Shown here: positions 59,461-63,821 of the stretch, piece by piece
Layout of the letters: each line of letters opens with the position of its first letter
Numbering within the stretch: position 1 is the first letter of the stretch
Assembly (NCBI RefSeq): GCF_000979455.1
Contig: NZ_JJOY01000006.1
Coordinates: 53,622 to 117,621 of the forward strand
Reading direction: 5' to 3'
From: Methanosarcina sp. 2.H.T.1A.6
GTDB taxonomy: Archaea; Halobacteriota; Methanosarcinia; Methanosarcinales; Methanosarcinaceae
Length of the DNA: 64,000 nucleotides
Notes under the pieces: generated by a model
The model's database searches: none
What the model was told of the DNA's origin: nothing
What the model saw: the letters and a program-made list of their open reading frames with translations, nothing else
Made by a program: the position numbers and the translations under genes

Positions 59461-59619
59461 AATTAACGTTGTTTAGATAGGGGGACTGATTTATGAGTGA
59501 TGTTTTATTCTAAAAAGGGGTGCTGGGAAAAATTGTAGGAGTACAGGCGGGGAACTCATTAAAAAAATTAAAACATATAAAGTTAATAATGAGTTCCTTT
59601 TTTATTGGTATGGTTTAAG

Positions 59620-61449
59620 ATGATGTCGGCGATCGAATGGGCTGAAAAATACCGACCCCGGACCCTTGAAGATGTCGTGGGGAACAAGAAGGCAGTGCAG
59701 GATTTCAGGGCATGGGCTGAGGAATGGCAATCCGGGACCCCTGAGAGAAGGGCAGTTATTCTCTATGGACCTGCAGGGATAGGGAAGACTTCAAGTGCTC
59801 ATGCACTTGCTAGGAACATGGACTGGGAGGTTATTGAACTCAATGCAAGCGACCAGAGGACTGCAGGTGTTATTGAGAAGGTTGCTGGCTCTGCAGCGTC
59901 AATGAATACCTTTTTTGGTGGAAAGCGTCTTATTATCCTTGATGAGGCGGACAATATACATGGGACTTCGGACAGGGGCGGAATGAGGGCTATTGCCGGG
60001 ATCATAAAGGCCACACTCCAGCCGATCGTGCTTATTGCAAATGACATTTACGGGCTAACACCCACAATCAGGAACCTGTGCCTGGAAATTAAGTTCGGGT
60101 CCGTGCAGAGCCGTTCAATGGTCCCTGCTTTGAAGAAGGTTTGTGAGGCTGAGGGAATTTATTGCAGCCAGGAAGCTGTCCTGCAGATTGCAGAAAATGC
60201 GGGTGGAGATTTCAGGAGTGCCATGAATGATCTCCAGGCTGCAGCGAGCGGGAAAGAAGCGCTCGAAGTTGAGGATATCGGTACTGCAGGCAGGGATGTC
60301 AAGGAGAACATCTTTAAGGCGATGCAGAAGATCTTTAAAAGCACTGACTGTAAAAGGGCTCTTGAATCTGCACGCGGGCTTGATGAAAGCCCTGAAGATC
60401 TCGTGCACTGGATCGATGAAAACCTGCCTATCCAGTATGCCCGCAAGGACGGTGACCTTGAAGATATAAGGACGGGTTTTGAATATATTTCAAAGGCTGA
60501 CCTTTATCTGGGGCGTGTAAAAAAGCGCCAGAATTACAGGATGTGGAGGTATGCCAGCATGCTTATGGTCTGCGGAGCTGCCCTTTCAAAGACAAGACCG
60601 TATCCCGGCTTTATCAAATACCAGCAGCCATCACTCTGGAGAAGGCTCGGGCAGACGCGTTCGAAGCGGGACATGCGGGACAATATCGCTTCAAAAATCG
60701 GGGAGCACAGCTTTGAATCAATGCATTATTCGAGGAACAACCTTCTCGGGTTTTATTCGCGAATGCTGAAAGATGAGGAATCTGCAGTTGAAGTTACTGC
60801 AAATCTCGAGCTTGAGCTTGAAGAGTTGATGTACCTCTCAGGAAGCGCAAAGGCAAGTAAAAAGCTGCAGAAAATTTACGACGATGCACAGAAACTTCTC
60901 GATGAAAGAAGAAATAAAACCGGAAAGCCGGAATTTTTTAAGGTCTCTGCCCCTGCACTAGACAATAAGCAGAGAACCCTCAGCTGCCCTGTAATAATTC
61001 CGGAGGAAGAAAAGGAGATTCAAAAGGAGACTCAAAAGGAGACTCAAAAGGAGGTTCCCGCCTGCAAATCTGAAGCTTCTGATTCTCATCCTTCGGAAGA
61101 CAAGCAGAAAACCCTTATCATGGGATTTGACACACAGCCAGAGATTCCCGAAAAAAAAGAGACTTCAGGAAAGATACTGTCTGATTGGCCGGAACCTGTA
61201 GAAAATAATTTATTCTCTTTTTCCGCTCCTCTGCCTGAAAATAAATCCCTTTCTGAATCTGTAGAGAAGGAAGCTTCCTCTATACCTTCAAAAAAGAAAG
61301 TTACGACTAACAGCGACCTATCAAAACAAAGGATATCTGACCAAAGGATATCTGACGAAATTTCGTCCTCCACAGGCACTCAGGATAATACGGGAGAGGT
61401 TTTGAAAAAAGCTGAGCCTAAAACCCAGAAAACACTTTTCGACTTTTAA
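59620..61449 (+). CDS. rfcL: Replication factor C large subunit
   Basis: About 609 residues; the large subunit of the archaeal clamp loader that opens PCNA onto primed DNA. The AAA+ domain has [20 protein letters not shown], Walker A ([14 protein letters not shown]), Walker B (LIILDEADN) and sensor 2 region [12 protein letters not shown]. The C-terminal third is charged and low-complexity, with KETQK repeats, and ends in a PCNA-interacting peptide: QKTLFDF are the last residues. The frame opens at TTG/ATG 59605; the tandem ATGs at 59620/59623 ([13 protein letters not shown]) agree with the family start. The small subunit is not in the window. Confidence 0.95.
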
Positions 61450-62010
61450 ATTTTTGTAGAGCGTGAATCGTTCATTTTGTTCCATTCTGGATTTCCCAAT
61501 CCAGAAAAGTTCTTTTTTATTTCCCCTAAATATTTTTTAAATTTTCAGGTCTTCTGACAGTCGGTTTATGTATGCCGAATTTTCGTACTTCCCACTTTCC
61601 GCAGATGTCTGTTCATTTTTCATAATTTTTCCTGCTCTCGTTTTTCTGAAAACCGCTTTAGTTACTCAAACACGTATTTTTGAAATTTTCCAAAGTTTTC
61701 AACCTTTTGCCTTCATTGAAAACTTCCAGCAGCCATTTTCCGAAGTTTCAGTTGAGATAATAACTGCAGATTTTCGAATAATTCTCTAAAAACGATATCA
61801 AGAAAAATGTTATTTTTTTGAAGACATCTGCGGAAGGTCGGGTACTTTATCTCGTTCAGTTTCAAAAGGATGCCGACACATGTTTTTTGTGGGTTTGACA
61901 GCATGTGTATTTGAAACTATTATACACAAATAAGCAACCATACACAAATAAACAACCCGACTAAACAAATACACAATCCTGGCTACTGCAAAAGAGGAAC
62001 TGAGGTTTTA
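61450..62010. other. Gene-free region after rfcL
   Basis: T-rich sequence with no supported gene. CTTCCGCA/CCACTTTCCGCAGATGTC-like phrases recur near 61590-61610 and, inverted, near 61825-61840. ACACATG...CATGTGT (61877-61908) is a 7 bp inverted repeat. The phrase CCATACACAAATAA-like occurs twice at 61920-61955. Confidence 0.45.
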
Positions 62011-62095
62011 TGTGAGCGGAACCAACTGGGTTGACTTTGAATTAAAGAAGAAGTTGTTGGTGTGTTTGGGAAGTTTGGATTGGAATCCGCTCACA
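62011..62095 (-). ncRNA. Candidate small RNA s1 (GUGAGCGG stem family)
   Basis: On the minus strand, TGTGAGCGGA pairs perfectly with TCCGCTCACA (10 bp) around a 65-base interior that is poor in G and rich in CCAA (TTCCAATCCAAACTTCCCAA). A TATA box TATTTATAAC (62117-62126) lies about 27 bases upstream of the stem's first base, so transcription should start at the stem. First of three relatives. Confidence 0.6.
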
Positions 62096-62269
62096 AATGC
62101 AAGTATACAACTTTAGTTATAAATACTTATTTAATATATTTAGTATATTCTCTTGCCTGCCTGATTCAGTGTTCCTTTACATGTAAAACTCTTTTTATTT
62201 TATTCTTTCGAGTTACAGTTATTTCAAAAGGTTCCCAGGTATTAAACCTGTAATCCGTATGATAACAGT

Positions 62270-62356
62270 TAAGATTAGTTAAGATAAGTTGAGATAAATT
62301 GAGATAAGCTGGGATAAGTTATGATAAGTTAAGATAAGTTAAGATAAATTGAGATA
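62270..62356. repeat. Tandem AAGATAAGTTG repeat
   Basis: About eight units of ten to eleven bases (TTAAGATAAG / TTGAGATAAA) lie between candidate RNAs s1 and s2. Similar phrases continue to 62425. Non-coding. Confidence 0.8.
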
Positions 62357-62477
62357 ATGCAGGCCTTATTGAGATCACATATGGTAAAGTTAAGAAAAGT
62401 CTAAAAAAGTTAAGAACTGTTAAGATAATTATCTTATTTTTAAATAAAGTTGAGAGAAAAAATCGTGAGAAAAGTTT

Positions 62478-62568
62478 GTGAGCGGGCTTGGGGAGTTGGG
62501 GGAATAGTTGGGGGAATAGTTGGGGGATATGGGTTTGGGGTTATACTATGGAAAAGAGGCCCGCTCAC
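62478..62568 (-). ncRNA. Candidate small RNA s2, C-rich
   Basis: On the minus strand, GTGAGCGGGC pairs perfectly with GCCCGCTCAC. The interior carries three UCCCCCAACU units plus further CCCCAA. A TATA box CTATTTATAG (62591-62600) lies 28 bases upstream, and GATTTTTTCTC follows 15 bases after the stem. On the plus strand the same segment has five runs of four or more G and could fold as a G-quadruplex. Confidence 0.68.
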
Positions 62569-63181
62569 TTAGCATGAGTAATATTACATCCTATAAATAG
62601 CTTTCTATAATATACATTATAATTTATAATTACAGTTTTATAGTTACTAATTTCTCAAACTGTTCTTCTCAATAATGTTTTTCTGGAACCTGTGCAGTCA
62701 GATAATGGGTCTCAGGGTAAAAATATGTGCAAAATAAGAAATATAAAGCCTTTAACAAAAAGAGTAAATTAAGTTATTACTTGTAGTAATTGTTGGACAG
62801 TCTGGCTCGTTCAAGCAGATTAATTTACGGGCAATTAACAATGCTTTTCGGTCGGAGGTTGATTTATTATCTTATTTCCGTGACAGCATTTCCATTATTA
62901 ATAGAGTTTAAAATAGAGTTTATTAATAGAGTTTAAAATAGAGTTTATTAATAGAGTTTAAAATAGAGTTTATTAATAGAGTTTATTAATAGAGTTTAAA
63001 ATAGAGTATTACCTGGTATTATCCTGAAATACGCCTGAATCGCCCTGCAAAACTGGCTTGACTTCTATGGTCATTTTTTACAAGCCTATCAATAGTATCC
63101 TGATAATAGTATCTTATTGACAGTATCCTGATGATAGCATAATATGATAAGATCACATAAACAGGTAGCAATATAATTCGT
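62569..63181. repeat. Region with ATAGAGTTTAAAATAGAGTT tandem repeats
   Basis: Between s2 and s3 no gene is seen. ATAGAGTTTATTA / ATAGAGTTTAAA units repeat about nine times at 62900-63008; TATCCTGATRATAG repeats at 63096-63140. Near 62798-62850 a fragment related to element H (TTCAAGCAGATTAATTTACG, GGGCAATTAACAATG) matches 59437-59470. Confidence 0.7.
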
Positions 63182-63254
63182 ATGAGCGGGTTGGGGAGTA
63201 TGAATTGGGGTGTTGGGGGGTTGGGGTTATCTTACAAAAGAGAGACCCGCTCAC
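63182..63254 (-). ncRNA. Candidate small RNA s3, C-rich
   Basis: On the minus strand, TGAGCGGGT pairs perfectly with ACCCGCTCA. The interior has four CCCCAA-type units (AACCCCAACCCCCCAAC, ACCCCAATTC, TCCCCAAC). A TATA box TATTTATA (63277-63284) lies about 26 bases upstream of the stem. The 5' part GTGAGCGGGTCTCTCTTTTG resembles s2. The terminator is less clear. Confidence 0.65.
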
Positions 63255-63357
63255 ATATTACATCATGTTAATCTCGTATAAATATATTTTGCTTGTATGA
63301 ATTCTGATACAAAAAATGCCGAAAGAATACCTGTAAACGGTGGGGATTTTCATACTT

Positions 63358-63681
63358 TCAAAGCAGTAACTTTATATTTTCCATTTCAGTTGTTTCCAGT
63401 TCTCTCTCCGAAAAATATAGGTCAATAATCCCCCTAAAGTGGGAGGCCTGTTTCCGCAAGCCTTGATTGATCAGCCAAAGTCTGAAATCAAAAGTCCTGA
63501 GAGGTAGGGGCGACGTGTTACACACAAGAAGCATGTCCAACATTGACAAGATGAGACGTTTTTCCAAAACCGTGTTACTTGCTACGGAAACTCGTTTCCA
63601 AATCAGAGTGAATAAATCCAATAAAGTGGAATAAATGCCAGAAAGTTGACGGAATCCCTCCTTAACTGAAGTAATGGGCAT
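63358..63681 (-). CDS. Hypothetical 107-residue ORF
   Basis: An open frame beginning MPITSVKEGFRQLSGIYSTL and ending ERELETTEMENIKLLL. It has no motif I recognise, no clear ribosome-binding site and no neighbours in an operon. Amphipathic helices dominate. It could be a real small protein, a fragment of an old gene or a chance frame. Reported with low confidence because it fills an otherwise empty stretch. Confidence 0.3.
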   Translation of the reverse strand: MPITSVKEGFRQLSGIYSTLLDLFTLIWKRVSVASNTVLEKRLILSMLDMLLVCNTSPLPLRTFDFRLWLINQGLRKQASHFRGIIDLYFSERELETTEMENIKLLL

Positions 63682-63821
63682 CCAACCTTAGAGATTGTGA
63701 AATTATAGGTGTATATAAATATCATCCGTCTAAATAAATTTTCAAACCCTTCTCCGAACAAAAGACATATATATTACTAGTGACTTGTTGACTCTGCATT
63801 TCAAGCAACTGCTTGTAAGGC

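Follow-up and report, generated by a model that had tools for sequence, protein, structure and literature searches.

Candidate clamp-and-loop small RNAs downstream of rfcL in Methanosarcina and their probable relatives across the class

Three candidate genes in one intergenic stretch

Does the intergenic stretch between rfcL and a tRNA gene in Methanosarcina sp. 2.H.T.1A.6 encode small RNAs and, if so, of what kind? A preliminary description of the 64,000-nucleotide stretch of DNA analysed here (the window) had pointed to three units on the minus strand there, each closed by a perfect stem of 9-10 bp, and had proposed them as small-RNA genes starting at the stem. All three are present, at 62011..62095 (s1), 62478..62568 (s2) and 63182..63254 (s3), and each is closed by a 10-bp stem: UGUGAGCGGA/UCCGCUCACA in s1, GUGAGCGGGC/GCCCGCUCAC in s2 and GUGAGCGGGU/ACCCGCUCAU in s3, the last being not strictly perfect since its outermost pair is G-U. 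The enclosed loops are 53-71 bases long and poor in G. The predicted folds consist of a single closing stem, with an extra inner hairpin in s1, and none of 200 shuffles of each unit folded as well (z-scores of -5.6, -6.9 and -4.6 for s1, s2 and s3). Interiors rich in C with CCCCAA units, as first described, are found in s2, whose loop repeats CCCCCAACUAUU, and in s3; s1, the most diverged of the three, has a C-rich loop with neither CCCC nor UUUU. The G-runs that had been seen on the plus strand of s2 and s3 are indeed there, as the unavoidable complement of C-rich loops. The site is marked by the convergent neighbour rfcL (replication factor C large subunit, a gene name taken over from the preliminary description), an ORF on the plus strand at 59605..61449.

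A TATTTATA box precedes each stem on the minus strand, at 62118..62125 for s1, 62592..62599 for s2 and 63277..63284 for s3, starting at -30, -31 and -30 from the first stem base, respectively. About 30 bases is the usual distance from TATA box to transcription start in Archaea. The spacing of 26-28 bases given previously applies to the middle of the box, its start lying 30-31 and its end 22-23 bases off. There are 11 occurrences of TATTTATA on the minus strand of the whole window; in the intergenic region 61451-63800 it occurs four times on the minus strand and never on the plus strand. Downstream of s2, a T6 tract on the minus strand (62457..62462) is a likely terminator.

How much weight can this arrangement bear by itself? 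Finding the box in place three times out of three had been judged hard to get by chance. A bare 9-bp inverted repeat with such a spacing is not rare, with 25 placements in the window (overlapping ones counted apart) against 3-20 in each of ten block shuffles. The case draws its strength from the repetition of one GC-rich stem and its box three times and, above all, from conservation.

The same intergenic region holds repeats of other kinds. Between s1 and s2, at 62257-62367 and 62388-62428, a 10-base unit similar to AGTTAAGATA recurs about ten times head to tail, and between s2 and s3, at 62895-63010, a 25-base unit, TTATTAATAGAGTTTAAAATAGAGT, is repeated in tandem. Just past rfcL, at 61591-61841, an inverted repeat of 20 bases, 90% complementary and 211 bases apart, is possibly the remnant of a small mobile element.

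Conservation within Methanosarcina

DNA matches to s2 were found in 27 of 30 Methanosarcina genomes, although in G011 and G018 only through a 30-base piece that belongs to an unlinked copy (group D below). We gathered family members by the exact pattern GAGCGG...CCGCTC, which makes the stem invariant by construction in this set; two pattern matches, on L092 and L112, did not resemble the family when inspected by eye and were left out, the former lying at another place on its contig than the L092 match near rfcL. The 65 distinct sequences fall into groups A (s2-like, 29 sequences), B (s3-like, 19), C (s1-like, 10 including the window's own s1), D (the unlinked copy, 2) and E (a short Methanolobus-type form, 5).

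Groups A to C were aligned together with their flanks, using the 27, 20 and 10 sequences, respectively, that had enough of them. Two sequences, L013 and L052, had been scripted into group A although their sequence places them in B; we moved them for this profile only, and they stay in A for the loop-motif counts and the TATA count of groups A-E given below. Conservation of the TATA region reaches 0.90 in group A, 0.96 in B and 0.87 in C, that of the stems 0.96-0.99 and that of the loops 0.83-0.92, against 0.48-0.64 over the 50-150 bases upstream and 0.40-0.57 over the 30-120 bases downstream. In group C the flanks stand at 0.46-0.79 beside its TATA region. Since conservation peaks on box, stem and loop but not on the flanks, each Methanosarcina member seems to be kept for its own sake. 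Copies of s1 are degraded in L010, L011 and L033, where the 5' stem arm is lost; judged from these copies, s1 is the least stable of the three genes and under loss in some Methanosarcina.

The genome that contains the window carries at least five members, namely s1, s2, s3 and two unlinked ones, L001 and L230. The preliminary description, in proposing a small-RNA family, was right about the family and drew it too narrowly, as these additional members and the distribution below indicate.

A family of the whole class

We built a covariance model, R1, on 40 sequences; its E-values are rough. The top match in the window's own genome is s3 (93.5 bits). R1 matches 29 of 30 Methanosarcina genomes and, at an E-value of 0.01, 171 of the 185 genomes of the order, including 115 of the 117 good-quality ones. 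When applied to a sample of 392 genomes from the phylum (E 0.001), it matches 79, which comprise all 69 genomes of the order and 10 of 14 from a sister order, these 14 being a single family in a different order of the class. None of the 309 genomes outside the order and this sister-order family was matched at that threshold; the counts come from a listing ordered by kinship, on which order 293 non-matching genomes were taken to lie outside the class. With a more sensitive search, all 14 sister-order genomes match at E 0.05, with 24 matches in total. Genomes typically have two to five R1 matches (range 1-10 across the order at E 0.01), and another, more sensitive search counted 13 in one genome of family f5. 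Among the groups known to us by working labels, genus g11, with two to four matches per genome, is presumably Methanolobus, and we take family f6 to be Methanotrichaceae and genus g25 to be Methanoperedens; evidence from contigs that bear the name Methanoperedens comes from L084 and L097.

The promoter travels with the stem. A TATA core starting at -35 to -26 is present in 43 of 56 distinct upstream stretches across the order. Random positions have one in 78 of 2847 cases and shuffled upstream stretches in 9%, and each of four other windows gave 4-5 of the 56. The core is in place in 63 of the 65 members of groups A-E and in 19 of the 20 sister-order members examined (20 of the 24 matches). 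Group D has its box about 9 bases farther from the stem than usual, and the RNA there probably starts upstream of the stem. On the 3' side, the order-wide sequence is rich in T and C and poor in G (T frequency 0.48 at +5 to +10), which would fit termination on T-tracts. That related genomes conserve stem and TATA box, as the preliminary description had anticipated, is thereby borne out by both the model and the TATA counts; its reading of the units as putative small-RNA genes starting at the stem is backed by box placement and conservation.

The rfcL site itself recurs, in agreement with an earlier suggestion that conservation be sought downstream of this gene. Of 80 rfcL loci, several of them cut off where the contig ends, 37 have a member on the opposite strand, 71-852 bases past the aligned end of rfcL (the tblastn end). 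The 37 belong to Methanosarcina, Methanolobus and other Methanosarcinaceae, with two Methanoperedens contigs (L084 and L097). Only 2 of the 22 loci named Methanoperedens or Methanoperedenaceae have a member there, so the site is kept just patchily in that group, while the Methanosarcina line has two or three tandem genes at it. Taken together, the clamp-and-loop RNAs predicted here almost certainly constitute a multi-copy family of the whole class, methanogens and Methanoperedens methane oxidisers alike, and there is very little doubt in our minds that s1, s2 and s3 would belong to a real RNA family of this kind.

A constant loop on free stems

Which part of these RNAs is held constant? Across the order the stems differ on both sides, as in GTGGGCAGG/CCTGCCCAC, ATAAGCGGG/CCCGCTTAT, TTGCGCGGG/CCCGCGCAA and GCGAGCGGG/CCCGCTCGC. 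In the model-based set (83 distinct rows), which we used for covariation, double changes occur at 9 of the 10 stem pairs, and doubly changed cells number 73 against 10.4 +/- 7.4 after shuffling, a value that none of 500 shuffles reached. Because this alignment is fitted to the stem, we also shifted the partner by 1-3 columns, which left at most 7 such cells.

The loops behave in the opposite way. Among 54 order-wide loops, CACTCCC is found in 49, the exact CCCCCACTCCCC in 36 and TTTT in 53, and the loops are almost bare of G (1.7% order-wide, 1.7-5.5% by group). Most loops of the class keep a U-tract and CCCCCACUCCCC. Methanosarcina departs from this rule: CACTCCCC occurs in 0 of 29 group A, 0 of 19 group B, 2 of 10 group C and 2 of 2 group D sequences, and s1, s2 and s3 have no class-wide CACUCCCC. 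By comparison with their relatives' loops, these three members appear to have drifted away from the CCCCCACUCCCC motif. The earlier picture of interiors that diverge towards different targets while the stem is kept holds at most inside Methanosarcina; class-wide, it is the loop that is constant and the stem that varies.

When 16 genomes were searched by the loop alone (TTTTN{2,26}CCCCACTCCC), the pattern had 130 placements and its reversed control 15, with overlaps counted separately for each. We evaluated 29 distinct loop-motif sites, 27 from the 30 loci returned by this search and two from the shared-partner-site search described below; L208, L212 and L214 stand outside the 29, having no TTTT shortly 5' of the motif or being unscored. 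A clear stem of 8-14 bp encloses 22 of these sites, while five have a weak stem and two have none, and these seven were excluded from the members. Some of the stems are unrelated to GAGCGGG and carry the same loop motif, such as TAGCGCCCTTTCAA/TTGAAAGGGCGCTA (L210), CGAGACGTGTG/CGCACGTCTCG (L209) and, in the window's own genome, TGAACGAGCGAG/CTCGCTCGTTCA (L230). A loop motif that stays constant while stems vary throughout the class suggests that a partner or a seed is shared.

Comparison with known RNAs

Rfam 15 recognises only the tRNA in the whole window at gathering scores, with no match on the locus up to E 5 and none overlapping the RNAs in 14 relatives up to E 1. The 6C RNA of actinobacteria also has C-rich loops; it is among the families without a match at the locus up to E 5. 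The relatives gave a sub-threshold RUF20 match in L197 and, away from the RNA, an M-box (magnesium) riboswitch match of 137 bits at 2849-3022 of L203, in genome G177 of the same family.

In the literature, supplementary transcript lists (which may hold single members) being outside the scope of our search, we found no description of the clamp-and-loop family. Its closest parallel is bacterial. The alpha-r14/NfeR1 or 'cuckoo' RNAs of alpha-proteobacteria, present in six copies in S. meliloti, have an ultraconserved C-rich motif (PMC10746234, PMC7143759). According to the portions of these reports that we compared, the two sets share a plan: both are multi-copy, with a C-rich motif unpaired in loops, constant while the stems differ highly in sequence. 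The alpha-r14 RNAs are described, however, as three hairpins with the anti-Shine-Dalgarno CCUCCUCCC in each loop, whereas the archaeal RNAs would have one closing clamp stem, one big loop with CCCCCACUCCCC or CCCCAA units, and a U-tract. By this analogy the family may work like bacterial C-loop RNAs, yet it lacks the features that define alpha-r14. The sX13 RNA of Xanthomonas is likewise C-rich in its loops, and its targets have GGGG near the start codon (PMC3771888); it differs, as described there, in being a single studied bacterial gene with three apical loops, and has no known kinship with the family.

Nearer to hand, about 200 small RNAs were detected in M. mazei by RNA-seq, and in the accounts compared sRNA41, sRNA154 and sRNA162 of that species, which are archaeal, intergenic and from the same genus, are reported or proposed to mask ribosome-binding sites (PMC5867862, PMC3510493). 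Of these, sRNA162 is described as a 191-nt RNA with three stem-loops, whose authors detected it in close relatives only (PMC3510493). Methanolobus psychrophilus has 195 small RNAs, including nine that are conserved and cold-induced (PMC5378194); these resemble our family in being several conserved small RNAs per genome, a likeness drawn from their published description only. Single family members are probably present among the small RNAs of both species.

Tests of pairing and targets

Does the loop pair with ribosome-binding sites in general? GGGG occurs at the start regions of 21 of 282 genes, against 5 and 7 in two control windows, and of 31 of 261 genes in a second set, against 12 and 18. 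With G-runs commoner at start regions, pairing of a C-rich loop there would be natural, in the manner of sX13 and alpha-r14. On these start regions, however, CCCCCACUCCCC has no advantage over its shuffles (-5.08 vs -5.02 +/- 0.37 and -5.61 vs -5.38 +/- 0.39 in the two sets), while an anti-Shine-Dalgarno sequence used as positive control has one (-5.33 vs -4.18 +/- 0.37 and -5.55 vs -4.50 +/- 0.47). The s2 loop falls behind its shuffles (-5.53 vs -6.52 +/- 0.27 and -6.08 vs -7.01 +/- 0.35), and the s1 and s3 loops show no gain over theirs in either the 282 or the 261 genes. We therefore rejected generic anti-Shine-Dalgarno mimicry as the reason for the letter order of the motif. That the order brings no gain suggests either that particular mRNAs are targeted or that a protein reads the motif.

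Individual targets gave one lead. The s1 loop pairs with GGGAAG and GGAUUGGA over the start site of a transporter-like gene in G000, G007 and G009, a result matched by 0.3% of 300 shuffled loops; from its protein sequence we take the gene to be a GPR1/FUN34-like acetate transporter. Pairing is better than shuffles in three of the eight species tested and not clearly so in the other five (a ninth, G024, was omitted, the gene being only partly found there). This candidate was picked post hoc at rank 2 of 261 genes in species that are related, and we count it merely as a lead. The cdh/ACDS genes, an idea taken from sRNA41, received no support, with percentiles of 10-73 for cdhA- and cdhB-like start sites at two loci.

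A search of nine genomes for a shared G-rich partner site, GGGGAGTGGGG with at most one mismatch, gave many scattered sites among the matches listed. Of the sites retrieved, L209 and L210 are family members; L208 and L211, from genome G168, hold another structured element, which is repeated, contains twin hairpins of the form CACCTGA.AAACCACCACGC as well as a stretch of CCCCACTCCCC, and is distinct from the family. Carriage by viruses was also considered. The one exact-pattern match in the viral collection, L311, lies between two phage-like ORFs, and its surroundings, on reading, show neither a U-tract nor a TATA box nor a matching stem; we judged it to be a chance match.

What might these RNAs do?

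The best explanation, which we hold to be evenly poised between right and wrong, is action in trans, with the C-rich loop of each RNA pairing with G-rich sites of mRNAs. Under this model s1, s2 and s3 would be three independently transcribed genes, each RNA having its 5' end at the first stem base or within a few bases of it, and the stem would clamp the 5' and 3' ends together. The clamp would hold open a loop of about 25-85 nt, in which poverty in G may have been selected so that the loop stays single-stranded. The loop would present the U-tract and a C-rich motif, ancestrally probably CCCCCACUCCCC, which may have given way to the repeated CCCCAA units of s2 and s3, s1 having drifted furthest. 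The C-rich strand would then pair with sites near the translation starts of particular mRNAs, and the U-tract might perhaps be bound by an Lsm protein.

Pairing has a serious rival in a common protein partner, because a generic anti-Shine-Dalgarno role is unsupported. U-tract and CCCCCACUCCCC would then dock one class-specific protein or Lsm, and the several copies would form a scaffold or a titrating sponge, for which CsrB-type RNAs offer a comparison. We regard this as possible, at a probability clearly below that of pairing. A loop motif kept class-wide on free stems suggests one common partner, the motif units are duplicated and variable in number in groups A and B, and their order is untuned to ribosome-binding sites; a docking site would have to tolerate change, however, since the CACUCCCC form is lost from both these groups (0/29 and 0/19). 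Two Lsm-like proteins of M. mazei, moreover, are reported to have no significant effect on the in vitro binding of sRNA162, a different RNA (PMC3510493). A bolder version, a class-defining system in which a single dedicated protein binds the shared U-tract and CCCCCACUCCCC and many mRNAs are thereby controlled together, strikes us as rather unlikely. It is improbable that each Methanosarcina member has instead a private antisense seed for its own target, with s1 controlling the acetate transporter. The loops of groups A, B and C differ and yet are each well conserved, and the start-site pairing of s1 in three species would be of this kind; the rank of that transporter, the negative species, the kinship of the species and the degradation of s1 in some of them all weigh against it.

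Two readings would do away with regulatory RNA altogether. Inverted repeats, G-runs and several copies per genome could be those of a DNA element without functional RNA (a mobile-element remnant, a quadruplex site or a terminator cluster), which we deem most improbable in view of the fixed distance and strand of the TATA box, compensatory stem changes, wide conservation and recurrence at the rfcL site. Fainter still is the prospect of a housekeeping guide or processing RNA (C/D, H/ACA or CRISPR-like): small, structured and class-wide as the RNAs would be, neither the locus nor the 14 relatives match the guide-RNA families of Rfam, and we saw no C/D or ACA box pairs, which were judged by eye alone.

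Significance for archaeal regulation

The genes with their promoter and stem are real and conserved and, as far as we searched, undescribed as a family; a function in trans is what we infer for them. In the portions of the literature compared, archaeal regulatory RNAs are described singly and in narrow groups, whereas the clamp-and-loop family spans a class. Its design is simple and recognisable and is absent from Rfam; a ready covariance model and several tractable Methanosarcina genes are at hand. Unexplained intergenic transcripts in RNA-seq data from methanogens might be grouped under one name. If the RNAs did form a class-defining system with a dedicated protein, it would be the counterpart in Archaea to Csr/Rsm or cuckoo regulation, and no homologue of it is known. 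The family offers a test of how an archaeon uses multi-copy C-loop RNAs.
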